From a virus: a DNA stretch of 28,667 nucleotides. A model generated the notes under the pieces. That model did no database searches. It saw only the letters and a list, made by a program, of their open reading frames with translations, and had not been told where the DNA came from. Both the position numbers and the translations under genes were made by a program. The stretch spans positions 1-28,667 of the IMG/VR virus record IMGVR_UViG_3300032770_000079; one strand, written 5' to 3'. Shown piece after piece: positions 9,854 through 28,667 of the stretch. Numbering within the stretch: the stretch's first letter is position 1; the number at the start of each line of letters is the position of its first letter.

Positions 9854-10003
9854 ATGGAGCGCAACGGAATCGCTCGTCTCTTTCAATGGATGATTCGCCG
9901 CTGGCGAATGCGTTGCCAGCTAGATGAGATTCGAACACTGCCTGTAAGGAGAGAAGGCCATGGCAGACGAATGGGTATTACAGGTCGGGGCCTACATAAC
10001 TGA
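9854..10003 (+). CDS. Possible small basic protein, 49 residues
   Basis: ATG 9854 follows an AGGGGG run (9844-9849) and gives a 49-residue, Arg-rich product (ARLFQWMIRRWRMRCQLDEIR...) ending at TGA 10003. It would overlap the next gene by 44 bases. The first ~35 residues look like an amphipathic basic helix; the rest, which overlaps the next gene, looks like shadow translation. It fills a 114-base gap in a dense operon. It may be real, or the gap may simply hold the ribosome binding site AAGGAG at about 9947 for the next gene. Confidence 0.35.
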   Translation: MERNGIARLFQWMIRRWRMRCQLDEIRTLPVRREGHGRRMGITGRGLHN

Positions 10004-13465: not shown

Positions 13466-13637
13466 TATCCGGGGACATATCCGAGAATCAGCCGACGGAT
13501 TGCGTGGGCGTCGGAATACCGAGGCCGCTCGGCGCATGCGCGAATCGGCGGAAAACGACCTGGAGCGCCAAGTAGCTGATCAACAGAAGCGCCAGGACGT
13601 GGCCGATCGCAAGAAGAGAAGGTCCTATGACCGCTAG
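13458..13637 (+). CDS. Small highly charged helical protein
   Basis: Start at ATG 13458, overlapping the preceding stop by eight bases; an upstream ATG (13383) would overlap more. The 59 residues are very rich in Arg, Glu, Asp and Gln (IRESADGLRGRRNTEAARRMRES), predicted to form one long helix. Charged helices of this type can be scaffold-like or bind nucleic acid. No family is recognised. It overlaps the next gene by 11 bases. Confidence 0.6.
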   Translation: MTDIRGHIRESADGLRGRRNTEAARRMRESAENDLERQVADQQKRQDVADRKKRRSYDR

Positions 13638-13917
13638 CGGATTTCCGCCTGGGACCAAAGATCCGGCGGGTACGGTGTCACAGGGCTACACAATCTCTAA
13701 TGCCTTGGGTGCACTCAATGCCCACAAGCCACAGATCGCCAAGCGAGTGGTTGAGGTGGTTGAGTATGCGCGTATCTTGCGTTACGTACTCAATGCCATC
13801 GATGGCTACCAGGATCGGTCGGGAGAAAGCCTGGACACTCTGCGGCGACATATTCGGCAGGGTAGAGTTGAAGTGCGTTGCATCGGCGGACGCATTACCG
13901 TCGTCGTTCCAGGCTAG
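13627..13917 (+). CDS. Unknown protein, 96 residues
   Basis: ATG 13627 overlaps the preceding gene by 11 bases. After a Pro/Gly-rich start (ASGFPPGTKDPAGTVSQGY) come helices (ALNAHKPQIAKRVVEVVEYARILRYVLNAIDGY) and a final pair of strands (VEVRCIGGRITVVVPG). It looks like a small helical-plus-hairpin protein. No family is recognised. It precedes the zinc-motif proteins of the capsid cassette. Confidence 0.65.
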   Translation: MTASGFPPGTKDPAGTVSQGYTISNALGALNAHKPQIAKRVVEVVEYARILRYVLNAIDGYQDRSGESLDTLRRHIRQGRVEVRCIGGRITVVVPG

Positions 13918-13952
13918 GGACGAGACAGCGGTGGCCACCGGAGGGCATTCCT

Positions 13953-14327
13953 GTGGCCACCCCCCACTTCTTGAAATCGGGAGAACCATTGACACCACTT
14001 GCTCCACAAAAAAGTGATGCGCGCGTCACGGCCGAGATCCGTAATCCAATGGGTTGGGTGGTTGGTCGTACCGAGCGACTAGCCGCATTGCTCGAAACTC
14101 CAGAGATCCAAGAGATTGCTCAGCGCGTGGTCAGTCATCTGGATAACTTTTGTGCAGTTGAGGAAATTGATCCTCAAGACCTTCAAGGCCAAGTGATTCG
14201 CACTCGAGCCTTGCGTTACATCACTATCCGGCTAGGAGCCCGTGATTGCTGGGCCTGCGGTGGTAGTGGCCAACAAGGCTCCGGCCTTCTCCCGTGCTCA
14301 ACTTGTGAGGGCACCGGGATCAGATAG
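13953..14327 (+). CDS. Protein with C-terminal DnaJ-type zinc motif
   Basis: Start chosen at GTG 13953, seven bases after GGAGGG (13940-13945); the frame is open to 13878 but that would overlap the preceding gene. The 124-residue product ends in two CXXCXGXG motifs, CWACGGSG and CSTCEGTG, the zinc-binding repeat found in the DnaJ/Hsp40 cysteine-rich region. The body is helical (TERLAALLETPEIQEIAQRVVSHL). The next protein carries the same type of motif near its N-terminus, 15 bases downstream. The pair may work together, or share a common origin by splitting or duplication. Confidence 0.7.
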   Translation: MATPHFLKSGEPLTPLAPQKSDARVTAEIRNPMGWVVGRTERLAALLETPEIQEIAQRVVSHLDNFCAVEEIDPQDLQGQVIRTRALRYITIRLGARDCWACGGSGQQGSGLLPCSTCEGTGIR

Positions 14328-14342
14328 AGACAAGGAGACCCA

Positions 14343-16286
14343 ATGTGGAGATGGATGCGGGAAGCCGCTGCCGGATCTAGTGCTGGATATCTAGAACGAG
14401 GTGCCAGCGCCAGTGATCCAGATGCTGATGGCATTCCTGATAACGAGGATCCCGAGGACATCAGCGTTCAGATGTGCCCTAGTTGTGGTGGTACTGGCAT
14501 CAAGGGTGCTGACTTATGTCCGCGTTGCAAGGGTGCGGGAGCATTGGTGAAGGAGTCTACCTGCGGTCCCTATTGGGTCTACTCTGACGATCCCGAGTGG
14601 CAGGAGTTGCGTGAAGCTACCCACCCTGCCTGGGAATGGATGCAGGAAGCGCCACGCACCTTCTCATCCGATGTGCGCAAGAAGTATGCAGCGTCGGGTG
14701 TGGCAATGGACGACGGTTCTTATCCAATCCCGGATGCTGATGCTCTACGTCGCGCTGTGGCTTCTTATGGACGCAATCCGACTCCAGCAGTCAAAGCTCA
14801 TATCATGAAGCGCGCTCGCGCATTGGGCAAGTCTGACTCGCTGCCAGATGATTGGAAGAGTTCTAAGGAAGCTGGAGTGGCTAACTTCGGAAAGAACAAA
14901 GCCGCTCCGTTCGGCAAGGACAAGAAGGACTCCAAAAACGGAGACTCCAAAAACGGAGACGGCAAAGGCGACAAGGAAGACGATGACAAGCCACCTTGGT
15001 TGAAGAACAAGGAATCAGAGGAAGGCATGTTGCTACGGCTGGATGCGCTCGAAGAGGAATTCCAGACCTTCGCTCGGTTGCGTGAGGCCAAGCCTGCTTC
15101 TATGACTCCGGCCTTCTCTACGCCAATCAGGGTCAAGACTTCGAGCGGCAATGAAGGCTACCGTGTGGCTTTAATTCGCGAAGGCAAAGGCAATAACGAG
15201 GATGACCAATGGTATACCGCCGATGCCATTAAGGAGATGTGCGAGTCGGGTGTTTGCGAGGGCATGCAGGCTTATGCTAATCATCCGACTGAGGAAGAAG
15301 AAGAAACCCGACCGGAGCGAGACGTAAAGGAGCTGGTAGGGACCTACCATGATGTAACTTTTAAGGAGTCGTCTAGTGGTAAGGCATATGCCGAAGGAAT
15401 TTTTGTACCGCTAACACTAGACGAGAATCATCCTCGCTATGGATGGGTGGTTACACTGGCGGAGGCGGCAGCTCGCAGCCAGGCGCCACAGCCCATTTGT
15501 GGCATCAGTTTGTTGGGCCTGTCGGCCGGAGATAATGGACCTCGGCCCGATGGTAGCCAAGGACGGATGGTAGACATGATTCGTCCTTATTCTGGTGACA
15601 TTGTCACCACAGCAGGAGCCGGTGGGGGATTTCTCCGCCAGGTAATGGAGAGCGCACGTGCGCTCCGCAACCGAACACAGAAGGAGCCAGAACCCATGAA
15701 GGCACTGGAATACCAGGCCAAGATGAGGGAGGCGGCAAAGCGCGTGCGTGAGGCCGACTCCGACGAGGACCGTCTAGAAGCACTGAGGGAAATGGAAACT
15801 CTCGAGACCGAGACCATCGACGGTACGGCCGACCTGACCATCGAGACTTTGCGCGAGGCGGCCCCTCAGCTAGTGGATCAGATTAGTCAGCAGGCCAAGG
15901 CTGAGGACGGCAAGACTATTGAAGAGCTGCGTGAAGAGAATGCGGGGCTCAAGAGTAGTCTCAACCGGTTTACAGATGCAGTTAATCTGACCACCGCGCT
16001 GCGTGAAGCCGGGGTCGAGGATCCGGTGGAGTTGCGGCACTACCATCAGCAGGCTCGGATTCTTGGTCTGACCGATGCGTCCGAGATCAAGGGTATGGTA
16101 GAGACCGATCGTGCCATGGAGGAGCGGCGACTGGCCAAGATGAAGGAATCGATCGGAGATTTGGGCGGCGATATCGAGATCGAAGGTGTTGTGGCTCGCA
16201 TTCCCGCTGGTGCGCTGCCTCAAGATGGTGGGGTGGATGTGCTCCGCGAGTCGGGGCTACCCCTTGTTTCAACGGACGCCAACTAA
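14343..16286 (+). CDS. Capsid maturation protease with N-terminal zinc motif and C-terminal scaffold
   Basis: 647 residues. In order: a DnaJ-like zinc pair (Cys 45, 48, 59, 62); a DUF6582-like helical module at about 106-172 (FSSDVRKKYAASGVAMDDGSYPI then VKAHIMKRARALG), common in actinophage head proteins; a Lys/Asp-rich linker at 188-216; a serine-protease-like capsid maturation domain at about 256-435, with AYANHP containing candidate His 314, ICGISLLGLS with candidate Ser 389, and a closing VTTAGAGGGF; and a coiled scaffold region from about 452 with LREENAGLKSSLNRF. It should cleave capsid and scaffold during head maturation. The zinc-plus-module N-terminus is an unusual addition. AGGAG-type spacing supports ATG 14343. 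Confidence 0.85.
   Translation: MWRWMREAAAGSSAGYLERGASASDPDADGIPDNEDPEDISVQMCPSCGGTGIKGADLCPRCKGAGALVKESTCGPYWVYSDDPEWQELREATHPAWEWMQEAPRTFSSDVRKKYAASGVAMDDGSYPIPDADALRRAVASYGRNPTPAVKAHIMKRARALGKSDSLPDDWKSSKEAGVANFGKNKAAPFGKDKKDSKNGDSKNGDGKGDKEDDDKPPWLKNKESEEGMLLRLDALEEEFQTFARLREAKPASMTPAFSTPIRVKTSSGNEGYRVALIREGKGNNEDDQWYTADAIKEMCESGVCEGMQAYANHPTEEEEETRPERDVKELVGTYHDVTFKESSSGKAYAEGIFVPLTLDENHPRYGWVVTLAEAAARSQAPQPICGISLLGLSAGDNGPRPDGSQGRMVDMIRPYSGDIVTTAGAGGGFLRQVMESARALRNRTQKEPEPMKALEYQAKMREAAKRVREADSDEDRLEALREMETLETETIDGTADLTIETLREAAPQLVDQISQQAKAEDGKTIEELREENAGLKSSLNRFTDAVNLTTALREAGVEDPVELRHYHQQARILGLTDASEIKGMVETDRAMEERRLAKMKESIGDLGGDIEIEGVVARIPAGALPQDGGVDVLRESGLPLVSTDAN
15681..15686 (+). promoter_or_regulatory. 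Internal ribosome binding site for scaffold
   Basis: AAGGAG lies nine bases before the in-frame ATG 15696 within the protease gene, at the boundary between protease and coiled-coil domains. This is what a nested scaffold start would need. Confidence 0.6.
15696..16286 (+). CDS. Probable nested scaffolding protein (internal start)
   Basis: An in-frame ATG at codon 452 of the protease gene, with AAGGAG nine bases upstream, would make a separate 196-residue protein equal to the C-terminal coiled part. This is the arrangement of the lambda protease C and scaffold Nu3, where the scaffold is translated in larger amounts from inside the protease gene. The segment is rich in Glu, Ala, Arg and Leu (ALEYQAKMREAAKRVREADS) and ends in a more compact region near residue 617 of the full protein (VVARIPAGALP), which may bind the capsid protein. 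The inference rests on the ribosome binding site, domain boundary and known precedent. Confidence 0.6.
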   Translation: MKALEYQAKMREAAKRVREADSDEDRLEALREMETLETETIDGTADLTIETLREAAPQLVDQISQQAKAEDGKTIEELREENAGLKSSLNRFTDAVNLTTALREAGVEDPVELRHYHQQARILGLTDASEIKGMVETDRAMEERRLAKMKESIGDLGGDIEIEGVVARIPAGALPQDGGVDVLRESGLPLVSTDAN

Positions 16287-16319: not shown

Positions 16320-17003
16320 ATGCAGTTCAAGCGACGGACGGCGGTGCGTCCCAAGAAGGCCCTTAACGGCAAGCGCCTGCGTGGCGTGCTGTCGTGGAAG
16401 GAAGCCGTTGGACGCTCCGACGAAGACATCCTCGATCTGATGGATCGGGGCTATGTGTTCGAGTTGGCTGGAGGCACCACTTCCAGCAATACGGTAATGG
16501 CTAATCCCATCTACCTGCCCAAGGCCACAGTGGTCTCTACCGATCAGACCGTCAACCAGGGCGATATGGTCTGGTGGGATCCGGTTAACTACACTCTAAA
16601 GCCTCTGACGACACCGACTGCGGTTGCGGTCAGTGCTACAGGTGGGTTTATCGGTGTGGCCCAGGGCCAGGCTAACCCCAATGTCTATCCCACCCCGGCG
16701 GCAGGTACTCCGGCTGAGAATCTGCCAGGCATGATCGTTCAGCGCGGTGGTACCGTCAAGGTACATAGCACCACCGGTGACGGCTCGTACTATCCGTATG
16801 AGCCCGTGACGGTGGGGGCTGACGCTCAGACCGTTACTCGTGGCGGTCAGACCACAGCCAACCGCGTTGGATTTGTGATCGTGCCTCTCCCGTCGAGCGC
16901 ACGTGGAGCCCCGGGCGCAACTCCTGCTCCTGAGACCGTTGCCGGTGGCACCGATCTCGAGCTATGGATTGAACCCAAATTCCCCGGCACCTACCTGCTG
17001 TAG
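16320..17003 (+). CDS. Capsid decoration-like protein (DUF2190-like)
   Basis: 227 residues from ATG 16320, with AAGGAG at 16309-16314. A basic N-terminal arm (residues 1-40) leads into a beta-rich domain: VVSTDQTVNQGDMVWWDP, FIGVAQGQ, a GGTVKVHSTTGDGSYYPYEPV strand pair and VGFVIVPLP. This is the pattern of DUF2190-type decoration or head-stabilising proteins, usually encoded next to the major capsid gene as here. It probably binds the outside of the mature head at the capsomer joints. The last part is Pro/Ala-rich (GAPGATPAPETV). Assignment to the exact family is by pattern only. Confidence 0.7.
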   Translation: MQFKRRTAVRPKKALNGKRLRGVLSWKEAVGRSDEDILDLMDRGYVFELAGGTTSSNTVMANPIYLPKATVVSTDQTVNQGDMVWWDPVNYTLKPLTTPTAVAVSATGGFIGVAQGQANPNVYPTPAAGTPAENLPGMIVQRGGTVKVHSTTGDGSYYPYEPVTVGADAQTVTRGGQTTANRVGFVIVPLPSSARGAPGATPAPETVAGGTDLELWIEPKFPGTYLL

Positions 17004-17031
17004 CAGGTCCGGAAAGAAAGGAGACAAGAAA

Positions 17032-18213
17032 ATGCCGGATCTGCGAGAGATCCAGAACAGGCGAATCAAGAAGATTCGCGAGGCAATGCGTGACGAGTGC
17101 AAGCAGTCGTCGGGTATCAATATTGAGCAGGTTGATTGGACCGATCCCGACTTCTCGGTTAAGCAGTTGCGCGAGGCCGCCTATCGAGCCCGAAGGGCTA
17201 ATCTGGCCGTCCACGCAGGGCGTGGTGGTACGATGGGCATGCGCGAGGCTTCGGCCGAGTCGTCCTTCGGTCAGTTGCTACGTGCTGGCGTCAACAACTT
17301 CATGTTCGACGCATATCAGCTCGTGCCTACGATCTATCAGGACCTGGTTCGAGTCACCAATTCGAACAAGTTCGAGGAGCTGTACGCTCCGCTGTACAAT
17401 TCGGAGCTGCCTCAGGAGGTCTTCCCCTCTGAGCCCTTCGATGACAGCAAGATCTTGGGCCTGGACGTGCACGTCAGGAACCGTAAGTTCGGACGTATGC
17501 TGGCCTTCGAGCGCGAGCTGGTCGATGACGACCAGACCGGGCAGATCACCCAGCGTGCAGCGAACCTCGGTGAGATGATGCGCTACGTCGAGGAACTGCA
17601 GGTGATGATCGCGATCGATGGTGCGATCAACCCGCAGACAGGTGCGGCAGGCTACTCGTTCACGACGCTGGGCAACCAGCTTCAGACGGTGGGCCAGCTG
17701 TCACAGCCCAACCTCGAACTGGCCGATATCCAGGCGCAGAACATGGTTGACCCGCTGGGCAATTTCATGCTCGTTACGCCGGACACGGTGCTGGTGTCAC
17801 CGGCCGACAAGTTCAACCTGCTGAAGCTGCTCAACAGCACGCTCCAGCCGTCCATTCCGGGTGCCTCTGGCACCCAGCTGTCTGCCCAGACCGGTGGTCA
17901 GACCGGATGGACTATGACCATCAACCCCTTGCAGGGCGAGTACAGCGCGAAGGTTTCTCGCTTCGTGCGTGGTGCAACCTCCTCACAGGGTGGTCCCGGA
18001 CTCAAGGGTCCGGGCCAGGATGGCTCCCACGGTGCTTGTTATCTGATGCAGAGCAAGAAGAGCATCGTATTCCAGGACAGGGACCCGCTGGAGATCATCC
18101 AGGAAGCGGTCAACTCGGGTACCGCATTCTCGTATGACCAGTACCGTTACCGTGTGCGGCGCCGGTTTGCGGTGAGAGTCATCGACCCTCGGTTTATCAT
18201 TCAGATCAACTAG
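17032..18213 (+). CDS. Major capsid protein (HK97 fold)
   Basis: Start at ATG 17032, eight bases after AAGGAG (17018-17023); earlier in-frame codons overlap the decoration gene. The 393 residues begin with a helical, charged arm (about 1-75, the usual delta/scaffold-like part that may be removed by the protease), then a region with FGQLLRAGVNNFMFDAYQLVPT, a long helix, and C-terminal strands with SKKSIVFQDRDPLEI and YRVRRRFAVRVIDPRFI, as in HK97-fold capsid proteins. Codons are more biased (mostly C or G at third positions) than in neighbouring genes, fitting a highly expressed protein. Position after protease-scaffold and decoration genes supports the call. Confidence 0.92.
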   Translation: MPDLREIQNRRIKKIREAMRDECKQSSGINIEQVDWTDPDFSVKQLREAAYRARRANLAVHAGRGGTMGMREASAESSFGQLLRAGVNNFMFDAYQLVPTIYQDLVRVTNSNKFEELYAPLYNSELPQEVFPSEPFDDSKILGLDVHVRNRKFGRMLAFERELVDDDQTGQITQRAANLGEMMRYVEELQVMIAIDGAINPQTGAAGYSFTTLGNQLQTVGQLSQPNLELADIQAQNMVDPLGNFMLVTPDTVLVSPADKFNLLKLLNSTLQPSIPGASGTQLSAQTGGQTGWTMTINPLQGEYSAKVSRFVRGATSSQGGPGLKGPGQDGSHGACYLMQSKKSIVFQDRDPLEIIQEAVNSGTAFSYDQYRYRVRRRFAVRVIDPRFIIQIN

Positions 18214-18283: not shown

Positions 18284-19789
18284 ATGCCCTGGAAGGTAGA
18301 GAGAGACACTACGGCATGTCCAGTTAGCCGCCCCTATGCGGTCAAGACAGTGGACACCGGTCGAGTGCACGGTTGTCATGCCACTCAGGCACAAGCCCGA
18401 GCGCAACAGAGCGCGCTCTACGCCAACGTAAAGGAGATGAGCGTGCGCGAAGGCTCGTATACCACGGTGGCTAACGGCAAAGAGATTACTGTGTTGTATA
18501 CGGATGCTGAGCTTGTAAAGGATATGGCCAATCTCTTCTCGGCTGTGCAGATGGAAGACAAAGGCGATGATCACGTGGCCGCCAAGGTTCTTAAGGGGGC
18601 AATGGCTAACTTGCAGTCGGGTAAGCCGCTGTCTGATATTGAACTTCAGCTCTTTCATCAGCTCAAGACCAAATATGGATCGCAGATGGAAGCAATCGCC
18701 AACGATCCCACTGAAGGATTCGTGCCTGGCGAGCCCGAAGGTTCGGGACGGGTTATGGAATCAATGGCTACACTGCTCCCTGGTGAATTGGCCCGAATTC
18801 GGGAGCAATACGCTACGGCGTCCACAACCAAACGCGACAAAGATATCACCGCTCCGCATCTACATGATGGCACTATGCATGACATGGCCCACGCCATGCA
18901 GCACGCCAAGCGTCTGCAAGACAAGGATGTATTAGCTGATCCTCAGAGTGTACAGTTTAACGTGGAGCATGTGCTTAACCACCTAGAATCGGGGCTTGAT
19001 CACGGGAGCCGTTTAGGTAAGCATTTGGAGGAACACCCTTCTAACCCCAAGACTTGGAAGGACGAGAAGGGCGAGCTTCACAAAATGCGGGAGTCTGATC
19101 CTCCTCCTCCACCCAATCTTCGAGAAGCGCCGCCCCATGACGAAGCTACCGCCCTGCTTCGGACCAACCCGATACACGAGTGTTGCTCCTGTTCGATGTA
19201 TGTAGTGGAATCTTGTCGGTGTTGGGGTTATGGCAACTATAAGGTGGATCCCGATTGGCTTTGTGACTCATGGCAGATGGCACCGCATTGGACAGATCAG
19301 CTACGACTGAAGCGCAAACTGGCGGGCGAAGACCCTGAGACCGGTCAGAAGCTCATGAGTGAATCGGATACACTAGCCCAGATGGTTGAGCTAGGTTCAT
19401 TGGTGGATTGGGCACGGATGCGAGAAGACGGTAAATCCCAGATCTGTGTGGACTTTGATGGAGTCATCTATGACCGCAGTCATGAGCCTGGTGGCAGCGA
19501 TGTGTTGGGTAAGCCGGTGTCGGGAGCCAAGGAAGCTCTAATAGAGTTGGCTCAATACTTTCGAGTAGTGGTGCTTACAGCTCGTCCCAACTTGCAGGCG
19601 GTGAGAGTCTGGTTGGAGGAGCATGACATGTCATCATATGTGTCAGATGTCACCAATCACAAGCCTCCGGCCGCAGCTTATATCGACAATCGCTCTTATC
19701 TCTTCAAAAATTGGCCACAGACGGTGAAGGACATACTGAAGGGACACGGGTCACAATACTCGTCAGACATTCCGGGAGGAACAACCTAA
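18284..19789 (+). CDS. Phage head-type N-terminus fused to Cys-rich region and HAD phosphatase
   Basis: 501 residues from ATG 18284. Residues 1-50 (MPWKVERDTTACPVSRPYAV, then GCHATQAQARAQQSALYANV) match a short module often found at the start of actinophage capsid-assembly proteins. The middle is helical. A cysteine-rich stretch follows at about 300-327 (CCSCS, CRCW, WLCDSW), likely metal-binding. The C-terminal 115 residues form a HAD-family hydrolase: DFDGV with D390 and D392 (motif I), T432 in VVLTARPN (II), K460 in HKPPAA (III) and D468 in YIDNR (IV). Residues needed for phosphatase chemistry are all present. Phage HAD domains of this kind may act on nucleotides or on DNA ends. The function in the head region is unknown. 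Confidence 0.8.
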   Translation: MPWKVERDTTACPVSRPYAVKTVDTGRVHGCHATQAQARAQQSALYANVKEMSVREGSYTTVANGKEITVLYTDAELVKDMANLFSAVQMEDKGDDHVAAKVLKGAMANLQSGKPLSDIELQLFHQLKTKYGSQMEAIANDPTEGFVPGEPEGSGRVMESMATLLPGELARIREQYATASTTKRDKDITAPHLHDGTMHDMAHAMQHAKRLQDKDVLADPQSVQFNVEHVLNHLESGLDHGSRLGKHLEEHPSNPKTWKDEKGELHKMRESDPPPPPNLREAPPHDEATALLRTNPIHECCSCSMYVVESCRCWGYGNYKVDPDWLCDSWQMAPHWTDQLRLKRKLAGEDPETGQKLMSESDTLAQMVELGSLVDWARMREDGKSQICVDFDGVIYDRSHEPGGSDVLGKPVSGAKEALIELAQYFRVVVLTARPNLQAVRVWLEEHDMSSYVSDVTNHKPPAAAYIDNRSYLFKNWPQTVKDILKGHGSQYSSDIPGGTT

Positions 19790-19790
19790 G

Positions 19791-20192
19791 ATGGATGTAG
19801 AGCAGGAAGAGTTACAAACACCGGCTGCGACGATTGATCCCATCAATCTGGCGGTAGGTGCAGGGTATTATGTGAAGAATCATCGCTTTGCCAATCTCTA
19901 TATTGAGACAGAAATGGGGCGTTCTCCTCGGTTGGCGGTTGAACGCTACTACTGGGATCTTGAGCATCCGGTGGCCGTAGATTTTATTCGGTCTTTGTGT
20001 TATGGCGAGCTAGAGTTTGCCACCAAAAAAGCTTATTGTAAGGAACATAACATCCGCTATATTCTGGTTCGAAACGAGTGGGATGGAGAAGGTGCAGAGA
20101 CCGCCTTGTTGAAGTATGAGAATCCAGATGAAGCTGTGGAAGCAATTCAAGATGCAGCCCGGCCTCTGGTCGGTCCCCGCCGACGTCGTTAG
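19791..20192 (+). CDS. Unknown soluble protein, 133 residues
   Basis: ATG 19791 is one base after the preceding TAA. The sequence looks like a compact alpha/beta fold: strands and helices with NLAVGAGYYVKNHRFANLYIE, then RYYWDLEHPVAVDFIRSLCYGE, and IRYILVRNEWDGEGAETALLKYENP. The end is a basic tail (GPRRRR). There is no signal peptide or membrane segment. It is followed by an AGGAG-bearing gap and the first secreted beta-helix gene. No family is recognised; it could be a neck or completion protein, or a partner of the HAD fusion. Confidence 0.7.
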   Translation: MDVEQEELQTPAATIDPINLAVGAGYYVKNHRFANLYIETEMGRSPRLAVERYYWDLEHPVAVDFIRSLCYGELEFATKKAYCKEHNIRYILVRNEWDGEGAETALLKYENPDEAVEAIQDAARPLVGPRRRR

Positions 20193-20206: not shown

Positions 20207-21916
20207 ATGCGTAAACTCGCAATTTCGCTCATGTTGACTTTGGTAGCAGTGGGTGGTGTCGGAATGGCCATCGCCGTTGCTGATGGGCCAAGCACTGGTA
20301 CGAATACAGCTTGTGCGACCGCAACTGTTCCTGATCACACGCTTGGGGTAGACGCTAGTCCGGTTTATACAATCACTGGTACTAGCACTTCTAACTGCAA
20401 CACGGTGACGTATACGATCCCGACTAGCACGAGCACAACAACCGAGACCGTTACGAGCACACCTACCACCACCTCAACCACGTCAACGACACCCACTACT
20501 ACTACCACCACCTCAACCACATCAACGACACCCACTACGACGACGAGCACGACGAGCACGAATCCGACTCCGCCACCCGGCGGTCCGATCGCTGGTTCTC
20601 CTGTCGTCGGGCAGACGCTAACCGCGCCGAGCGGAGCGACGTTTCAGTGGTACGACGAGAGCGTGCCGATCGCCGGGGCGACCACACCGACCTACACCGT
20701 TCAGGCATCCGACCTCGATCACACGATTGCAGTCACCGTTGATGGTGTGCCGTCATCGTCCACCACTGTCGTGCAAAACCCATGCACAATCACCGACTCG
20801 ACGGCATCAGCCGCCGTCACGGACGTGCAGAACACGGCCAACTCCGGCAAAACCATCTGTCTCACCGCTGGCACCTATGCTATCACCAGCCTTACTGTTC
20901 ATCAAGCGGCGATGACCACGCTGGAGGCGCAGCCTGGCGCGTCTCCACAGCCGACCATTTCAACTGAACCGGCGATCCGCGCCAACAACTTGCGGATCGA
21001 AGGCTTCCATCTCTCCTCGGGCCTCGACGACAACGGCTCCGGCAACGTCCAGATTGTTGGTAATTACTACCACGACGCTGGCGCCAACGGCTCCCTATGG
21101 TTCGCGAGCACCAGCGATACCACCAACTCGACCGTCTCAGAGCTGCACAATCGAATGGTCAACGTCCAGACCAACGGCTCAACGTTCAACGACGGCTGGG
21201 GATTCTATGGCTGCGATGTCAACGGACAGCACTATATCCAGAACTACAACACGTTCGCGACCATGAACCAGCACCCGCTGCAGCTCGCTGGGTGTGCCAC
21301 AATCCAGGCGATTGGGAACGAGTACCTGAATATCTGGGACCAATACTCCTCCCAGCACGCGGACTGTCTCGAGATCTGGGGTGGAGCGGGCGCATCAACC
21401 ATTCAGGACAACCGGTGCACCACCCAGACCCCGGTGCCGCCATGTCCAGGTGTCGCGGGCGGCCGATGCGGCTCCGACTTCCTGCTGTCCGGCGATTCAG
21501 GGCCGTTCATCGTTACGAACAACCTGATTGTCAACAGCCCGAAGCAGTGTTTTGACGACACGCCCAACGGTACGTTCAATGGATCGATGCGCAACGGGAC
21601 AATCGAGAACAACACGGTTGTCGGCTGCAACTACGGGGCGATCGACATGACGGGTGGGTCTAGTAGCGGGAACACGGTTGCCTATAACATTGCGGATAAT
21701 ATTACCGGCAACGGCAATTGCTCACAGTTCACCGTCGAGGACTTCAACAACGGTCTCGCGCCGCATTGCCCTGGCACACATGACACGAACGTTACGCCGA
21801 GCTTCACAAGCACCGAACCGTCGAATCCAAATGCAACCTATGCGACAACGAACGTTAATGCCGCTTGGGGATATCACCCGGCGCGTGTAGGATTCGACGC
21901 ACACCTGCCCAATTGA
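20207..21916 (+). CDS. Exported beta-helix protein with Thr/Ser stalk
   Basis: 569 residues from ATG 20207; AGGAG at 20191-20195 is a little far upstream (11 bases). A Sec signal peptide is clear at residues 1-26 (MRKLAISLMLTLVAVGGVGM, then AIAVA-D). A Thr/Ser stalk of about 50 residues spans 72-120 and is encoded partly by a 39-base direct repeat. An Ig-like domain (about 126-180, PVVGQTLTAPSGATFQWYDE) follows, then a right-handed beta-helix from about 192 to the end, with NYYHDAGANG, DGWGFYGCDVNGQH and SSQHADCLEIWGG. The beta-helix is paralogous to 23084-24889. Export signals are unusual for tail proteins, so this may be released to or displayed on the host surface, or be a surface-glycan enzyme. 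Confidence 0.85.
   Translation: MRKLAISLMLTLVAVGGVGMAIAVADGPSTGTNTACATATVPDHTLGVDASPVYTITGTSTSNCNTVTYTIPTSTSTTTETVTSTPTTTSTTSTTPTTTTTTSTTSTTPTTTTSTTSTNPTPPPGGPIAGSPVVGQTLTAPSGATFQWYDESVPIAGATTPTYTVQASDLDHTIAVTVDGVPSSSTTVVQNPCTITDSTASAAVTDVQNTANSGKTICLTAGTYAITSLTVHQAAMTTLEAQPGASPQPTISTEPAIRANNLRIEGFHLSSGLDDNGSGNVQIVGNYYHDAGANGSLWFASTSDTTNSTVSELHNRMVNVQTNGSTFNDGWGFYGCDVNGQHYIQNYNTFATMNQHPLQLAGCATIQAIGNEYLNIWDQYSSQHADCLEIWGGAGASTIQDNRCTTQTPVPPCPGVAGGRCGSDFLLSGDSGPFIVTNNLIVNSPKQCFDDTPNGTFNGSMRNGTIENNTVVGCNYGAIDMTGGSSSGNTVAYNIADNITGNGNCSQFTVEDFNNGLAPHCPGTHDTNVTPSFTSTEPSNPNATYATTNVNAAWGYHPARVGFDAHLPN
20464..20541 (+). repeat. 39-base direct repeat, two copies
   Basis: Two adjacent 39-base units (20464-20502 and 20503-20541) differ at two bases. 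They encode part of the Thr/Ser stalk of the exported beta-helix protein, rich in ACC, ACT, TCA and ACG codons. Copy number of such a unit can change by slippage, which would lengthen or shorten the stalk. Confidence 0.85.
20788..21916 (+). repeat. Beta-helix paralogue region, copy 1 (pairs with 23738-24889)
   Basis: Comparison by eye shows roughly 75-80% base identity with the corresponding part of the lipoprotein gene at 23738-24889. Exact shared runs include 33 bases (21059-21091 with 24005-24037) and 47 bases (21393-21439 with 24339-24385). Gene duplication followed by divergence is the simplest explanation. Boundaries are approximate. Confidence 0.75.
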
Positions 21917-21953
21917 GGAGCCAAAGTGGCGCAAGAGATAGAGAGGACTAACA

Positions 21954-23084
21954 GTGATTGTTGAGCTGGGTAACCACGCTGCAAATAATGGTTTGGACAG
22001 TCGTCCCAAGGTAACCACCATTCATATTCCTGAGGCGGATGAGCACGGTCTGGGTGGCTACACACACGTTCCGGGCGCAATCAGCGTGCCGGACTTCAAG
22101 CAGCATCGCTCTGATGCGATGGACTTCCGAGCCGGGGTCACACATTTGCCCGACCACGAGATTCTGCTTGCTTGTGTGAATGCCTGGCCACACCAATCCA
22201 ACGATGTGCCGGATTGGATTTCGGTCCGTTCTCATGAGGAGATGTACGGCACGAAAGTTGGTCATCCCAAGAAGGTGGCCAAGGACGTTGAGGGTTTCTT
22301 GCGCGAGTTCTATGGTCTCGGATCAGATGCGGGCAAGCCTGCAGATGTCGAGTTCACACACTGGACACGATTCGGTGCTCCGGGCCAAGGCGAACCAGTA
22401 AATCCGCTGCCAGACGTCCAGATGCTCTATACCAATGCTGGTCGTGTCATTTCGAACATCAACGATGGCGGTGGTCAGGTTGGCTTTACCGCCGCTGCGA
22501 CTGCATCCGGCGCGACTTCACTGACGGATTCAGGTGCTTCTTGGACGACGAACCAGTGGGCTGGCTACCGCGTCTATGCGCAGTCATCTACCTCGAATAT
22601 GGTGTGGGCCAACATTCTATCGAATACAGCGACTGCTCTAACTGTTGATCGCTGGTATTCGGCAGCCACGCCAGGTGGCGGTGCCGGTTCTACCCCAAGC
22701 TCGACAAGCCCGTTTATGATCGCAGATGGCGGCAGCTTGTCTTCGTGGTTTGTGGCGCTCACGAGTACCAACATTACTCCGGCCGCTGCCGACACTTCCC
22801 TATCTGGTGAGATTACCACCGGTGGTGGTGGTCTTATTCGAAAGATCGCTCCTTATGCGCAAACCTCAGGAGTTGCGTCTCGATCGATCACTCTGACACC
22901 GGTGTTTACAGCCAACGGTTCAGACTCGCTACCGGTAACTGTATATGCAATTGGTGTCTTCGTCTCTATGGTGGTTGCCTCGACACCGCTGTGCATGAAG
23001 TTCGAAACAAGCCTGAATGCGTCAGCCACACTGAATCTCTCGGGCGATCAGGTGACGGTCACCGAGACCATTACGGGTTCGTAA
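21954..23084 (+). CDS. Structural-type protein with beta-rich C-terminus
   Basis: 376 residues from GTG 21954 (GAGAGGA upstream at about 21940-21946). The first ~150 residues are mixed and include THVPGAISVPDF and FLREFYGLGSDAG; from about residue 165 the sequence is beta-rich with Thr/Ser/Gly/Ala (AAATASGATSLTDSGASW, WYSAATPGGGAGSTPSS). No signal peptide is seen, unlike the genes on either side. It is most like a virion or tail-associated protein with an adhesin-style end. The stop overlaps the next ATG (TAATG at 23082-23086), so it is translationally coupled to the lipoprotein gene. No family is recognised. Confidence 0.7.
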   Translation: MIVELGNHAANNGLDSRPKVTTIHIPEADEHGLGGYTHVPGAISVPDFKQHRSDAMDFRAGVTHLPDHEILLACVNAWPHQSNDVPDWISVRSHEEMYGTKVGHPKKVAKDVEGFLREFYGLGSDAGKPADVEFTHWTRFGAPGQGEPVNPLPDVQMLYTNAGRVISNINDGGGQVGFTAAATASGATSLTDSGASWTTNQWAGYRVYAQSSTSNMVWANILSNTATALTVDRWYSAATPGGGAGSTPSSTSPFMIADGGSLSSWFVALTSTNITPAAADTSLSGEITTGGGGLIRKIAPYAQTSGVASRSITLTPVFTANGSDSLPVTVYAIGVFVSMVVASTPLCMKFETSLNASATLNLSGDQVTVTETITGS

Positions 23085-24889
23085 TGCGGCGGTGGGGGCT
23101 TGCCCTCATCGCCGTTGCAGTATTGCTGTCCGGCTGTGGGGGATCGTCTAAGCCACACGTTTGGGTGACGCGACCATATAACCACAACCTGACTGCATGT
23201 GTATCAAATGACTGTGGACCATATTCTGCGACACTACATTGGGGACCACTCGGCTTTCCATCCACAACCGGCTATTATATAAGTCTGAATGGTAGTCAAG
23301 TAGCGGACGTAGCTGCGAGCCCATACACTTTTGTTGGGATTGATTGTGGCACCACGAGTACGCTCAGTGTACAACCACACAATGGGAGTGGTGGAACAGG
23401 GCCAGTATACTCGTCGAGCTATACAACACCAGCTTGTGGTGGTGGTGGTACACCAGTTAATACAGCAGCTCCGGCTATAACCGATTCAACGAATCCGGGG
23501 TTGTATGAATCTGGTGATGTACTAAGCGCTTCAACAGGTAGTTGGACCAACTCGCCAACGAGCTATAGTTACCAGTGGATGGACGAAGATACAGTGATTT
23601 CGGGGGCAACTTCTAGTACATATACACTTGCATCCTCCGATCTAGATCACACCGTTGATGTTGAGATTACAGCTACCAATGGCTCTGGTACAAGTAATGT
23701 TGCATTCTCGGCATCATCTGGTGTCATAGTGAACGCGTGTAACATAACGACCGCTAACGTGACGACGGCCGTTGGGGATATCAACTCCGGTCATAGTGGC
23801 CAGACAATCTGCCTCAGCGCCGGAACGTATGCGCCCGGCACCATCAGCGGCAACAACGCCGCGATGACAACCCTCGAGGCTGCGCCCGGGGCGACTGTCA
23901 CCCTTTCCAATCAGCCGGTCATCACCGCAAACAACTTCCGGATCGAAGGGTTCGTCCTCTCTGGCGGCCTCACCGACAACGGGGCCGGAAACGTGAACGT
24001 CGTCGGTAATTACTACCACGACGCTGGCGCCAACGGCGCGCTCTGGTACGCCAACGGCAACGACACGACCAGCTCGACCGTCAAGGAGCTGCACAACCGG
24101 ATGATCAACGTGCAGACCAACGGCTCAACATTCGACGACGGCTGGGGGTTCTACGGCTGCGACGTCAACGGGCAGCACTACGTGCAGGATTACAACACGT
24201 TCAATACCATGAACCAGCATCCGCTGCAGCTCGCGGGGTGCGCCACGATCGAAGCGATCGGGAACGAATACCTCAACATCTGGGACCAGTACTCCTCTCA
24301 GCACGCAGACTGCCTGGAGATTTGGGGTGGGGCGGGCACATCAACCATTCAGGACAACCGGTGCACCACCCAGACCCCGGTGCCGTCGTGCCCGGGGGTT
24401 GCGGGCGGCACATGCGGCAGCGACATGCTGCTGTCCGGCGACTCCGGCCCATTCACCGTCACAAACAACCTGATCTCGAACAGCCCGAAGCAGTGTCTGG
24501 ACGACACGCCGAACGGAACGTTCAACGGCTCGATGACGAACGGCGTGCTCGAGAACAACACGATCACGAACTGCGCATTCGGCGAGCTTGACATGACCGG
24601 CGGGTCGAGTACCGGCAACACGGCCGAGTTCAACGTCGCGTCGATCACCGGCAACGGCAACTGCAGCCAGTTCACGACCGAGGATTTCAACAATGGCAGC
24701 CAGCCGCACTGCCCCGGTACGCACGACACGAACGTGACGCCCACGTTCACCAGCACTGAGCCTTCAGATCCAGGCGCGACATACGCAACGAGCAACGTCA
24801 ACTCGGCATGGGGATATCAGGTCGGCTGCACGTCACTCACTGTCTGCCACGGCCGCGTCGGCTACGACGCGCACATCCCGACGCCCTGA
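23084..24889 (+). CDS. Beta-helix lipoprotein with Fn3- and Ig-like domains
   Basis: Start at ATG 23084, overlapping the preceding TAA; an upstream in-frame start (22991) would remove the signal from the N-terminus. The 601 residues start with a lipoprotein signal: RRWGLALIAVAVL, then lipobox LSGC with Cys 18. Next come an Fn3-like domain (about 24-117, with GYYISLNGSQVADVAASPYT), an Ig-like domain (about 125-216, LSASTGSWTNSPTSYSYQW), and a beta-helix from about 219 that is paralogous to the protein at 20207. The 5' third is AT-richer and the rest much richer in G+C, so the gene looks chimeric. A lipid-anchored phage product on the host surface could block infection by other phages, alter surface glycans or bind the host; this is inference. 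Confidence 0.85.
   Translation: MRRWGLALIAVAVLLSGCGGSSKPHVWVTRPYNHNLTACVSNDCGPYSATLHWGPLGFPSTTGYYISLNGSQVADVAASPYTFVGIDCGTTSTLSVQPHNGSGGTGPVYSSSYTTPACGGGGTPVNTAAPAITDSTNPGLYESGDVLSASTGSWTNSPTSYSYQWMDEDTVISGATSSTYTLASSDLDHTVDVEITATNGSGTSNVAFSASSGVIVNACNITTANVTTAVGDINSGHSGQTICLSAGTYAPGTISGNNAAMTTLEAAPGATVTLSNQPVITANNFRIEGFVLSGGLTDNGAGNVNVVGNYYHDAGANGALWYANGNDTTSSTVKELHNRMINVQTNGSTFDDGWGFYGCDVNGQHYVQDYNTFNTMNQHPLQLAGCATIEAIGNEYLNIWDQYSSQHADCLEIWGGAGTSTIQDNRCTTQTPVPSCPGVAGGTCGSDMLLSGDSGPFTVTNNLISNSPKQCLDDTPNGTFNGSMTNGVLENNTITNCAFGELDMTGGSSTGNTAEFNVASITGNGNCSQFTTEDFNNGSQPHCPGTHDTNVTPTFTSTEPSDPGATYATSNVNSAWGYQVGCTSLTVCHGRVGYDAHIPTP
23738..24889 (+). repeat. Beta-helix paralogue region, copy 2 (pairs with 20788-21916)
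   Basis: Second copy of the duplicated beta-helix module. It is clearly richer in G+C than copy 1 and than the first third of its own gene. The change of composition occurs near 23740-23760, within the lipoprotein gene. Confidence 0.75.
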
Positions 24890-25584
24890 TGCCGCTCACG
24901 AAAGTTCAGTCAACGACCGGCATCACCACGGCGAACGCCACGTCGGTGACCGCCACCTACAGCGGCACGCCAACCTCCGGGAACCTTCTCGTCGCGATCG
25001 CATCCGGCGACGACACGCTGACGATGAACAACTCGGGATGGACCGCCGGGCCGACCGTATCGAACTACAACACCCTGTCGCTCTGGTGGAAGATCGCCGG
25101 GGCGGGCGAGCCGACCGCGATCAAGGTGAACATCGGATCGTCCACGGGCGGAAGCCTATGGATCGGCGAATACTCCGGCAACGTCTCATCGGCCGCGCTC
25201 GACAAATCCTCGACCGGCAACCCCGGATCGTTCACGGCCACCTGCACAAGCGGCACGACAGCCACGACCACGCAGGCTGACGAGCTCGCGATCGCAGGCT
25301 TCGGCTGGGGGAATTACGGCGGCGACATCGGAACCGCCTCCAGCTACTCCAACAGCTTCGTGCAGGACGCCCAGGCGGCCTCCACCGGCTCCGGAAACAA
25401 CATTCAGCATGTTGCGGTCGCGACGCTCGCGCTCGCCGCGACCGGCGCAGAGACGAGCACCGTCACGATCAGCACGTCGGTGCAACGCCCACTCGGCCTG
25501 ATCGCGACATTCAAAGCGTCAGCCGCCCGCCAGTCTCTGGTTTTCCGGAACCGCTACCAATGCAACACGCAACTGAGGATGTGA
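24889..25584 (+). CDS. Beta-sandwich (lectin-like) surface protein
   Basis: Start at ATG 24889, overlapping the preceding TGA (TGATG at 24887-24891); the frame is open from 24808. The 231 residues show a beta-sandwich pattern with typical Thr/Ser/Gly turns: VTATYSGTPTSGNLLVAIAS, LSLWWKIAGAGEPTAIKV, SLWIGEYSGN and a last GLIATFKAS strand. Domains with this pattern (a free-standing jelly-roll-like fold with a WKIAGAGE core and an ATFKA end) occur in bacterial surface proteins and phage accessory proteins, and may bind glycans. No signal peptide is seen. It belongs to the GC-rich block. Confidence 0.7.
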   Translation: MPLTKVQSTTGITTANATSVTATYSGTPTSGNLLVAIASGDDTLTMNNSGWTAGPTVSNYNTLSLWWKIAGAGEPTAIKVNIGSSTGGSLWIGEYSGNVSSAALDKSSTGNPGSFTATCTSGTTATTTQADELAIAGFGWGNYGGDIGTASSYSNSFVQDAQAASTGSGNNIQHVAVATLALAATGAETSTVTISTSVQRPLGLIATFKASAARQSLVFRNRYQCNTQLRM

Positions 25585-25587
25585 CCC

Positions 25588-26079
25588 ATGGCCTGTGGCC
25601 GCTGCTACACCGTCACCTTTTCCGCCGTCTCCGTCTCAGCCCAGCAGGAGTTCTTCTACATCAAGCCGGCGGCGGACAAGCCCGTCCAGATCGAATGGGC
25701 GAAGATCACGAACGTCGACCTGGCCGCCGAAGCCGGCGACGCGCACGAGGACTTCTGGCGCATCGAGCTGATCTACCTGCCCGCCACCGTCACCGTCGGC
25801 TCGGGCGGCACCGCCCCGACCCCAGGGCCGCTCGAGGTCAACGACACGGCCGCGGGCTTCACCGCCCGGGTCAACGACACCACGAAGGCGACCACGTCAG
25901 GCACCGCCGTCACGATCGACGCGGACGGCATGAACAACCGGATCGGCTACGTGTACCTGCCAACGCCCGAGAATCGGCCGGTCGTCGCGAATGCCGCCGC
26001 GATCGTGCTGCGCCTGAACTCGACGCCGACCGGCACGAACCTGCTCAACGGGACGATGTACGTCCGCGAACTGGTCTAG
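25588..26079 (+). CDS. Small virion-type beta protein
   Basis: 163 residues from ATG 25588, three bases after the preceding stop, with GAGGA about 12 bases upstream. The pattern is familiar from small phage structural proteins seen near tail genes: a start of MACGRCYTVTFSAVSVSAQQ with FFYIKPA, a middle of IELIYLPATVTVGSGGTAPTPGPL, a strand region with TTKATTSGTAVTIDADG, and a final VLRLNSTPTGTNLLNGTMYV. It is predicted to be all-beta. It has no signal peptide. The exact role is unknown; it may form trimers on the virion. It ends the GC-rich block. Confidence 0.65.
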   Translation: MACGRCYTVTFSAVSVSAQQEFFYIKPAADKPVQIEWAKITNVDLAAEAGDAHEDFWRIELIYLPATVTVGSGGTAPTPGPLEVNDTAAGFTARVNDTTKATTSGTAVTIDADGMNNRIGYVYLPTPENRPVVANAAAIVLRLNSTPTGTNLLNGTMYVRELV

Positions 26080-26122
26080 CCCGCGCGCCTGACGCCGATC
26101 CGCGAAAGAAACCAGGTCGCTG

Positions 26123-27604
26123 ATGGGCATTTACCGCCCGGCCCCGCGACCGTCACGGCGCCGCATATGGGTCGGAACGAAAGCCGCTTCACCGGGTGGC
26201 GGCAGCTTTACAGCATCAGATACGTCGCTGACGAGCGATAGCGCATCGCGACTTTTGGTTGTCGGCCGATCCTGCTCAGATACAACCACCACATCCGATG
26301 CTGCGACCCGGAATGTCACGCTTAGTCGAACCGCATCTGATACAAGCAATACATCTGACACTGCGACCCGTCTATTGGTGGTTGCTAGAACGACATCGGA
26401 TACATCTGCGACCAGCGATTCGACGACTCGAAATCTTGCAGTTGCGCGCACAGCATCGGACACATCTAACAGTTCCGATAACGCTAGTCGTTCTAATCTA
26501 CTGCTTGTACGCACGGGAGCTGACACAACTAACACATCGGATAGTGCGTCCAGAAGCATTACAGCTCTACGCACCGCAAGCGATACATCCAATACCACAG
26601 ACTCTGCAAGCCGCTCGGCCCTCCATTTTGCTCGTACAGGATCGGACACTTCTAATACTTCTGATACAGCAGTCCGGTCGGCTCTTCTTTTCACGCGTAC
26701 GGCGTCAGACACATCTAATACCTCTGACTCGGCTACGCGTTTGGCTACCTTTGCTCGTACTGGGGCAGATACATCACTCACTTCAGATTCTGCCACAGTA
26801 ATCTGGGTGGGTGGCGGATATTCTACCTTTGACACATCACTCACGTCAGATTCGGCTACACGTATTCTGCATGTAGCTCGGACCGGCTCCGACACATCAC
26901 TCACCTCAGATTCCGCCACAGAGAGTAGCACGGGTGGTCTTAATAGAACGGCATCTGATACCAGCGCTACGTCTGATTCAGCTGTCCGATCGGCACTTCA
27001 CTTTGTTCGAACGGCTTCGGATACTAGTAATACGTCAGATAGTGCTACACGAGTCCTTGCGCTTGTTCGGACAGCATCCGATACCAGCAGCACTTCAGAC
27101 TCGGCTACGCGCTCTTTGCGTGTTGCGCGCACAGGGTCAGACACGTCGCTTACATCTGATGCTGCTACGCGGTCTGCTTTCCATGCTGTTCGTATAACGT
27201 CAGATACATCGCTTACCAGTGACACCACCTCTCGACTGGTGGTGGTCGGACGTACAGCATCAGACACCTCTCTCTCTAGTGATGTAACCGGGAGTCCTGG
27301 ACCACCTCGTATTTGCTCGCCCACTCTAGCGGCTATCACACCATATACGAGCAGTGCTGGAATCCAGGGCTACTCAACACCCGGGCCGACAATTGGCTAC
27401 GCGTCACATGAGGTAATAACAGCTTATGTCTCGCAAGAAGTGCTGGTAGGTGGTTACTCGTCATTTGAGACATTACATGGTTATGTGTCTTCAGCAGCAA
27501 TTACCAGTTACTCAACGCCGGGGACAATCGTCGCTTATTGGTCGATGGCGACTATCACACCGTACGTATCCGGATCCTCTATCTCCGCGTGTTCAGGAGG
27601 TTAG
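26123..27604 (+). CDS. Repeat protein with 18 Ser/Asp/Thr repeats
   Basis: 493 residues from ATG 26123. After a short basic N-terminal part (RPSRRRIWVGTK, residues 11-20) and a Gly linker come 18 tandem repeats of about 20 residues (residues 32-388) with consensus SDTSNTSDSATR-x-L-x-x-x-RTA. A C-terminal region of about 100 residues then carries a second, looser repeat of Tyr-rich turns (ITPYTSS, IQGYSTPG, ITAYVSQE, LHGYVSS, ITPYVSGSS). There is no signal peptide. The repeats alternate a polar Asp/Ser/Thr turn with a hydrophobic strand, suggesting a stacked beta-solenoid or a fibre shaft. DNA copies are not identical, so they are old or selected to differ. A fibre-like virion component or adhesin is the best guess; no family is recognised. 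Confidence 0.8.
   Translation: MGIYRPAPRPSRRRIWVGTKAASPGGGSFTASDTSLTSDSASRLLVVGRSCSDTTTTSDAATRNVTLSRTASDTSNTSDTATRLLVVARTTSDTSATSDSTTRNLAVARTASDTSNSSDNASRSNLLLVRTGADTTNTSDSASRSITALRTASDTSNTTDSASRSALHFARTGSDTSNTSDTAVRSALLFTRTASDTSNTSDSATRLATFARTGADTSLTSDSATVIWVGGGYSTFDTSLTSDSATRILHVARTGSDTSLTSDSATESSTGGLNRTASDTSATSDSAVRSALHFVRTASDTSNTSDSATRVLALVRTASDTSSTSDSATRSLRVARTGSDTSLTSDAATRSAFHAVRITSDTSLTSDTTSRLVVVGRTASDTSLSSDVTGSPGPPRICSPTLAAITPYTSSAGIQGYSTPGPTIGYASHEVITAYVSQEVLVGGYSSFETLHGYVSSAAITSYSTPGTIVAYWSMATITPYVSGSSISACSGG
26216..27286 (+). repeat. 18 tandem coding repeats of about 60 bases
   Basis: Eighteen units of about 57-66 bases encode the Ser/Asp/Thr repeat. Protein identity between units is high at SDTS, TSDSA and R-T-A/G positions, while the bases differ at many third positions. 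Most units are 60 bases; a few carry one or two extra codons. Confidence 0.85.
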
Positions 27605-27607: not shown

Positions 27608-28159
27608 GTGACAATTAAGACAGCATTAAGTGATTCGGATATTGCCAACTGGCACGGTCTGCTGAGCGAGATCACCGATCAGGAGATTATTGATGTCTAT
27701 GCCCGTGCTAGAGACGCTGGATTAGCCGAGGGTAATGAGCACAAGTATCGCCCGAGCGTTGGCGCTGCTCGCATTCGGGCATTGGCATCTAAGCTGACTT
27801 CCAATCCGGGAGTAAACGCTCCGGTTATCATCCTTAAGACTTACTCAACTTTCCCGCCCGTTGCTGCTCAGTTAACTGATACCAATGGCAGCATAAACCT
27901 CACTACCGCGACCACTGTTAAATTTGTGATGAAGGGAATCACATCTAATACAATTATCACTGGTACCGCGACAATTGTGACTCCTGCGACCGGTATGGTG
28001 TCTTATACTTGGGGATCAACCGATACTCAACAGGCTGATTCCTATCAAGTAGAATGGGCTGTTACCTGGTCAGGCGGCGGATTTCAGATCATTCCTAGTG
28101 CAGCAGCCAGTAACCAAGTGATTGAAATTGATGCTGATTTGGATGCCGCAACAGGCTAA
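27608..28159 (+). CDS. Baseplate/upper-tail-type protein (BppU_N-like)
   Basis: 183 residues from GTG 27608, preceded by AGGAGG about 8-13 bases upstream. The N-terminal ~75 residues are helical (SDSDIANWHGLLSEITDQEIIDVYARARDA). The C-terminal ~105 residues have an Ig-like pattern (PPVAAQLTDTNGSINLTTATTVKFVM, then GMVSYTWGSTDTQQADSYQVEWAVTW) like the N-terminal domain of BppU-type baseplate proteins and similar phage neck/tail proteins. It probably marks the return to virion structural genes after the accessory block. The stop overlaps the next ATG (TAATG at 28157-28161). Confidence 0.7.
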   Translation: MTIKTALSDSDIANWHGLLSEITDQEIIDVYARARDAGLAEGNEHKYRPSVGAARIRALASKLTSNPGVNAPVIILKTYSTFPPVAAQLTDTNGSINLTTATTVKFVMKGITSNTIITGTATIVTPATGMVSYTWGSTDTQQADSYQVEWAVTWSGGGFQIIPSAAASNQVIEIDADLDAATG

Positions 28160-28667
28160 TGCCGGAGCGCGCTAGATTACCTTTCCTCCGAAGAGGAGCC
28201 TTAACTCAACAGGCCGTGGTGCCTGCTGAAGTTACCAATTTTATCCCTCGACCCAGATTAGATCCTTCCGGGGCTACTAATCCCAGTATTGCCAGCGCCA
28301 CCAATGCAGTGAGACATCGTATTCAAGACGGATACCCATCATTGGACACGAGCCCTGTACCCTTTAATATGGTTAGGCTCGAGAACCTGAGCGATCAGAT
28401 CGTCGGAGGAACGATCTTTCAGGTGCGCTATCAGGACGTTCCTACGCAGCGTTATATGAATGCTCAGGTAGTGCCGGGAACATTAGTCGCTTATTTGGAC
28501 GGGTCCTGGGCGCCGACTACGCCCACGGTTGATGTCAATTCCGACGGAAACTTTACGCTGCTGTCCGCACCGACGTCTCAGCTGCTGATTACCTATGCCT
28601 GGCAATATCTGAGCGATGGTGACATCCATCAGTTTCTAGACGAAGCTCGACAGTGGTTGCGTGAGTT
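28159..28667 (+). CDS. Head-tail connector-like protein (3' end outside window)
   Basis: ATG 28159 overlaps the preceding TAA. The frame runs without a stop to the end of the window, giving at least 169 residues. After a Pro/Arg-rich start (MPERARLPFLRRGAL) there is a helix-poor middle with NMVRLENLSDQIVGG and a beta domain (VVPGTLVAYLDGSWAPTTPTV). The visible end (DGDIHQFLDEARQWLRE) starts a helical region of the kind seen in phage connector or baseplate-attachment proteins. Function is inferred from context only. Confidence 0.65.
   Translation, partial: MPERARLPFLRRGALTQQAVVPAEVTNFIPRPRLDPSGATNPSIASATNAVRHRIQDGYPSLDTSPVPFNMVRLENLSDQIVGGTIFQVRYQDVPTQRYMNAQVVPGTLVAYLDGSWAPTTPTVDVNSDGNFTLLSAPTSQLLITYAWQYLSDGDIHQFLDEARQWLRE

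Follow-up and report, generated by a model that had tools for sequence, protein, structure and literature searches.

Most phage proteins known to act outside a lytically infected cell are small lipoproteins for exclusion, proteins for lysis or tailspikes made in surplus. Here we describe two paralogous genes, A and B, on a 28,667-nucleotide stretch of viral DNA (hereafter the window; positions 1 to 28,667 of IMG/VR virus record IMGVR_UViG_3300032770_000079), which is a fragment of a soil-type phage. Exported lipoproteins are known from phages, as are phage proteins with a beta-helix; A and B would combine the two as a secreted/lipid-anchored pair placed in a virion cassette, with a domain for which the searches described below found no relative.

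The lipoproteins of the T5 Llp/Cor family resemble B in being phage lipoproteins exported to the host envelope, with an intramolecular disulfide and a gene beside virion genes (PMC9586334). The Llp gene adjoins the receptor-binding gene pb5 (PMC9586334), and the title of a work cited there describes Llp as made early (PMC9586334). Llp is small, jams FhuA and is made early, whereas B is a 601-amino acid (aa) protein with FN3 and immunoglobulin (Ig)-like modules and a 384-residue cysteine-rich domain, encoded in a late cassette together with a secreted paralogue. Ltp of phages TP-J34 and TP-778L and the Ltp-like gp41 of Cutibacterium phages share with B a lipoprotein signal, a long non-cytoplasmic part and a spacer after the signal, but Ltp carries two small helix-turn-helix (HTH) repeats with which it binds the tape-measure protein (PMC11480721), and B has no such domain. 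B carries the lipoprotein signal of the Llp/Cor/Ltp class but has neither its small single-domain nor its HTH-repeat form, and no match of B to these families was found in PHROG, Pfam or NCBIfam. Signal-peptide endolysins and Rz1 spanin lipoproteins are further late phage products that rely on the Sec or lipoprotein export of the host (PMC6116005); compared with these, A and B are much larger, lack a lysis domain and lie outside a lysis cassette. Tailspike and depolymerase beta-helices of the P22, Sf6 and HK620 type are similar in that a probable right-handed beta-helix may work on surface glycans, but they have a particle-binding head domain and no export signal, where A and B have a signal peptide or lipobox followed by a stalk or Ig module. 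A separate helix-like protein encoded in the window (2647-4638) has no signal, in contrast to A and B. With export signals, and in a cassette between head and neck-like genes, A and B do not classify as tailspikes or receptor-binding proteins. Hoc-like and whisker Ig capsid decorations are related in sequence to the Ig module, which in A and B forms a spacer between export signal and cysteine-rich domain.

Export signals and cysteine content

Export signals were sought with a rule combining a 13-residue hydrophobic stretch, a basic start and either an AxA site or a lipobox, the latter defined as [LVI][ASTVI][GAS]C within about 15-35 residues. Only A and B were picked among the 33 genes called in the window, and random proteins of the window's composition passed at rates of 0.2% (AxA) and 0.005% (lipobox). 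A started at ATG 20207 behind a Shine-Dalgarno sequence (AGGAG), and its N-terminus (MRKLAISLMLTLVAVGGVGMAIAVA, followed by D) had the basic n-region, h-region and AxA site of a Sec/signal peptidase (SPase) I substrate. The N-terminus of B (MRRWGLALIAVAVLLSG, followed by C) had the features of an SPase II substrate (MRRWGLALIAVAVLLSGC, lipobox LSGC18); its ATG at 23084 overlapped the upstream stop (TAATG) and its stop overlapped the next ATG (TGATG). Neighbouring cassette proteins of the window had no export signal, nor had large virion-type proteins at comparable places (2647-4638 in the window, and 8444-10321 and 12809-15406 in the related contigs L003 and L006). No other cassette gene of the relatives had a signal comparable to that of A or B; an open reading frame (ORF) in L003 (7736-8392) passed the crude rule, with a hydrophobic stretch that was late and weak (2.05) and a longer ORF on the opposite strand. 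Outside the cassette, the relative G003 encoded a 362-aa exported-looking protein (MKSFVIAFVATAALAVFGAWALAAG; 6798-7886, minus strand). In A, the Thr/Ser stalk contains a near-perfect 39-bp tandem duplication (Table 1), which suggests that its length changed recently.

Paired cysteines are frequent in proteins folded outside the cytoplasm and provide a test that is independent of the signal rule. Mature A contained 14 cysteines and B contained 18 in addition to the lipobox cysteine, with 12 common to the domain that they share. Counts were even within each module, the N-terminal modules holding two (A) and four (B) and the extra insert of B another two, the disulfide-type pair C582/C588 of its helix-type domain. 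Cysteines made up 2.5% of A and 3.2% of B, against 0.8% of the beta-rich neighbours (17 of 2109 residues); in relatives, cassette genes had 0-1.5%. Cysteines in A and B were thus elevated, even-numbered and conserved, as expected of extracytoplasmic folding, which fits export of the entire proteins and goes beyond a signal-like N-terminus. The two tests agreed, upholding the Sec signal on A and the lipobox (LSGC) on B proposed in an initial annotation of the window, and its suggestion that both proteins are made for the host envelope or surroundings is the most likely one given the signals and cysteines. Export of both from the infected cell, A apparently secreted and B lipid-anchored, is well supported by these predictions.

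A conserved C-terminal domain

The C-terminal domains of A (379 aa) and B (384 aa) were 76% identical, and the motifs DGWGFYGCD and SSQHADCLEIWGG reported in the initial annotation occurred, identical, in both. The ratio of nonsynonymous to synonymous substitution rates (dN/dS) was 0.16 overall, indicating purifying selection, and fell to 0.085 over a central stretch of 120 residues, which contained DGWGFYGCD, NQHPLQLAGC and SSQHADCLEIWGG; the low central value likely places the functional face there. Of the shared beta-helix of about 380 residues that had been proposed, the shared domain stood but the fold is one that we infer, as no family in Pfam (Beta_helix included), PHROG, NCBIfam or PDB matched it. 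A right-handed beta-helix is probable on sequence features. The helix-entry motif GKTICLTAGTYA matched known Beta_helix proteins (5 ORFs, at 4 of 30 loci) and neither the 144 phage control ORFs nor reversed sequences; asparagine-rich PbH1-like turns were commoner than in shuffled sequences, about 1% of which equalled the count; and, in an HHalign comparison that was near background, the two best planctomycete Beta_helix matches aligned at the helix entry.

Protein, profile and motif scans of the viral contig collection found no relative of the domain, two loci being chance matches; the phage collection gave matches to the Ig-like part only, and the plasmid collection held no relative. Among 84,980 bacterial and archaeal species, scanned with one motif only, a single chance match was found, in a planctomycete, and a profile search of 392 genomes from that phylum returned no domain relative. 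The pair that the initial annotation had advised looking for elsewhere did not turn up in viral, phage or plasmid collections; with bacterial genomes scanned by one motif and metagenomes not covered, it need not be rare. No anti-phage defence family matched A or B.

Genomic setting and origin of A and B

The terminase, portal, head protease and major capsid genes of the window were all oriented rightward, and the capsid gene was followed by a 501-aa gene, a 133-aa gene, A, a 376-aa gene, B and four more beta-rich genes; the last gene, starting at 28159, continued past the window end. The tail-gene setting assumed at first gave way to a cassette between the capsid/head genes and a neck-like gene. 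The late operon was retained, but the interval 20207-24889, described as the A/B pair, also holds a third, unrelated structural-type gene (21954-23084).

We compared the locus with six related contigs, five found through the capsid protein and the sixth through the 376-aa gene. In L004 (a contig of 105 kb) and in L010, the 376-aa gene had a homologue situated 10-12 bp after a small gene and 3-9 bp before the next gene; the small gene occupied the position of 19791-20192 and was, in L004, its homologue. Since the homologue of the 376-aa gene abuts both neighbours there, A and B are additional genes that flank it in the window, and the domain of A was not found in the four whole records searched, that of L004 included. 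The cassette, bounded by the 133-aa and neck-like genes, varied among relatives, being almost empty in L005, encoding 123-aa and 865-aa proteins in L006 and several proteins in L003, including a 625-aa helix-like one. Judged by its gene content, this is a head-neck-side decoration cassette with A and B as accessory members. Directly after the neck genes, relatives carried a sugar cassette encoding GDP-mannose 4,6-dehydratase, a C-methyltransferase and several glycosyltransferases (L006 16792-20301; L005 14540-19551), for which virion glycosylation is a possible role. These sugar-pathway genes indicate that glycans matter to the clade; any link to A and B would be conjectural. WhiB, sought in the related contigs as a clue to the host, was not found.

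No terminator-like sites were found around A and B, promoter-like sites occurred only at chance level, and B was coupled to virion genes by 1-nt overlaps on both sides. No integrase was found in the window or in the six related contigs, all of which are possibly fragments. Lacking a promoter and terminator of their own and packed in a late transcript, A and B look late-lytic, unlike classic prophage morons; they share with morons the state of an accessory insertion absent from relatives, and the missing promoter and terminator rule out a strict prophage moron. The absence of promoters, terminators and integrases argues for lytic late action rather than lysogenic conversion, and together with the tight coupling to virion genes it weakens the role in host colonisation raised by the initial annotation.

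The composition of B was chimeric. G+C content at third codon positions (GC3) was 0.41 left of 23807, 0.87 in 23807-26147 and 0.42 to the right, with a sharp switch inside B near the boundary between its Ig-like and C-terminal domains; GC3 of A's domain was less extreme (0.73). Composition suggests that the cassette of another phage was the probable source of B's domain, which would have been fused in frame to a lipoprotein anchor of different origin. A phage rather than a bacterium is the likelier source because two adjacent virion-type genes share the composition block. Adsorption proteins evolve by swapping a C-terminal specificity domain on a retained anchor, and B resembles such an exchange with the export signal as the retained anchor.

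Possible roles of A and B

Tentatively, and with a confidence a little short of even, we read A and B as late-made, Sec-exported accessory proteins acting on a host-surface or matrix glycan, thereby protecting progeny and excluding others. Both would be made late and exported by the host Sec machinery, A being freed (or wall-associated) via its Thr/Ser stalk and B lipidated and held at the cell envelope through its FN3/Ig spacers. The shared domain, a probable disulfide-braced right-handed beta-helix, would bind or cleave a host surface or matrix glycan, an activity that we infer. B on the infected cell and A free around it would then strip or mask the receptor or the extracellular matrix, so that other virions could not use the cell and progeny would not be trapped at lysis. 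The locus suggests a phage that remodels the host exterior late in infection. A division of labour between a released A and an anchored B, proposed in the initial annotation, may exist, as may the glycan change or phage exclusion that it named. A bolder form of this reading is possible but doubtful: A and B would represent an undescribed kind of late-stage exoprotein system, a matched secreted/anchored pair with the same cysteine-braced specificity domain, which recombination swaps between phages, leaving the export anchor in place, and with which a lytic phage conditions host surface and surroundings just before lysis.

Several observations weigh against glycan-directed export. The signal peptides were predicted by a mechanical rule and not by SignalP. 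The structure prediction advised in the initial annotation was uninformative on the fold, as AlphaFold with two-sequence input returned a predicted local distance difference test (pLDDT) score of 33 both for whole A and for the domain alone, and HHalign against 30 planctomycete Beta_helix proteins was near background. No catalytic family in Pfam or NCBIfam matched the domain. A and B are also sited among virion decoration genes, and their Ig-like module is related to phage capsid-decoration and whisker Ig domains and matches a solved phage tail protein; both points fit a virion role as well. A and B could accordingly be head or neck appendages whose N-termini are merely signal-like, or else exported proteins that become part of the particles at lysis. 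Other beta-rich decoration-type genes occupy the cassette in several relatives, and a swap at a domain boundary is typical of adsorption proteins, but no neighbouring cassette protein of the window has an export signal, and a precise lipobox and cysteine-rich, even-numbered modules are unexpected in proteins assembled in the cytoplasm. We regard this decoration role as unlikely.

An equally improbable alternative is that A and B form a superinfection-exclusion pair, in which B, on the surface of the infected cell, blocks the receptor or injection step of other phages as T5 Llp or TP-J34 Ltp does, and A acts as a decoy for incoming ones. B has the lipobox and export features for this, and phage lipoproteins with such a role exist and can adjoin virion genes (PMC9586334; PMC11480721), but those known are small, unlike B with its 601 aa and large domain. 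Moreover, T5 Llp is made early, whereas A and B lie in a late operon without a promoter of their own, and with no integrase in the group there is no apparent long-lived lysogen to protect. A and B might also be host surface proteins (an adhesin or a matrix enzyme) that the phage captured and carries along as passengers, so far without a selected function in the phage. Their insertion relative to related contigs, the lack of viral relatives in the collections searched and a stalk, Ig and helix-type architecture resembling that of bacterial exported proteins fit this origin. This origin seems quite unlikely, since the one-motif scan of bacterial and archaeal species gave only a chance match, both copies have been retained under purifying selection (dN/dS 0.16) and the composition of B's helix is common to two adjacent virion-type genes. 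Least credible is an assembly artefact joining two unrelated sequences in B: the sharp GC3 switch at about 23807, reverting at about 26147, would be its signature, but reading frames are open across both junctions, B repeats the Ig-then-helix order of A, and the longest exact A/B match (47 bp) lies away from the junction. We therefore judged misassembly of B very improbable.

If late glycan-directed export is correct, a large paired exported system in a virion operon would mean that phages also equip the host cell and its surroundings with specificity domains, and the locus would allow a direct test of whether late export alters exclusion or the escape of progeny. A further lesson is that a helix-like protein in a viral contig need not be a tailspike; a signal peptide and cysteines can distinguish the two.

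Table 1. Positions of A, B and neighbouring features in the window.
Feature	Coordinates	Strand	Remarks
Major capsid protein gene	16972..18213	+	Query for finding related phages
Small conserved gene (133 aa)	19791..20192	+	Left edge of variable cassette in relatives
Gene A (569 aa)	20207..21916	+	Sec signal peptide 1-25, Thr/Ser stalk, Ig-like module ~125-190, helix-type domain 191-569
Signal peptide of A	20207..20281	+	Predicted SPase I cleavage between AVA and D26; hydrophobicity 2.44 over 13 residues, two basic residues, AxA
Tandem duplication (39 bp) in Thr/Ser stalk of A	20463..20538	+	1.9 copies, 97%
Helix-type domain of A	20777..21913	+	12 cysteines, all common to B
Structural-type gene (376 aa) between A and B	21954..23084	+	Unrelated to A/B; homologues in L004 (51% identity) and L010 (59% identity)
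Gene B (601 aa)	23084..24889	+	Lipoprotein signal (LSGC18), FN3-like and Ig-like modules, 384-residue helix-type domain
Signal peptide II and lipobox of B	23084..23137	+	Predicted lipidated Cys18, +2 residue Gly
Helix-type domain of B	23735..24886	+	76% identical to domain of A
Foreign codon-composition block	23807..26147	+	Most of B's helix domain and genes 24889-25584 and 25588-26079; two-changepoint fit, log-likelihood gain 176
Virion-type beta-rich protein (231 aa)	24889..25584	+	No signal peptide; in foreign-composition block of B
Virion-type beta-rich protein (163 aa)	25588..26079	+	In foreign-composition block of B
Neck-like conserved gene, start	28159..28665	+	Right cassette edge; homologues in L004, L005, L006 and L010 by inspection

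Other features of the window and related contigs

The helix-like protein at 2647-4638, encoded upstream of the terminase, was 663 aa long with the look of a tailspike-type helix (NGTLKFRHGRIYSL...LTIEGNGATL) and the head MTKHRLAELGSDGTIGGAGGS. The L003 protein at 8444-10321 began with LGSDGSVGGPGGS, similar to this head, and showed no similarity further on, which suggests a common short particle anchor on which bodies were exchanged. After the capsid gene, the 501-aa protein (18284-19789) had a C-terminal domain, fused to a conserved N-terminal part, that matched PHROG 1238 (annotated as phosphoheptose isomerase), and its motif CVDFDGVIYD was haloacid dehalogenase (HAD) phosphatase-like. A 493-aa protein (26123-27604) was built from repeats of about 15 residues (ASDTSxTSDSAxR), similar to repeats in proteins of L004 (753 aa) and L010 (444 aa); as Tandem Repeats Finder (TRF) detected no DNA repeats, they must be old in terms of DNA sequence. 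In L010, a MuF-like head morphogenesis gene (1087-2553) contained an apparent intein-like insertion (CFAPGVKVSGDFVAGMKARYRGEMLELVTASGARVTLTPNHPVATEQGFV ... ANGIVCSNCKC).

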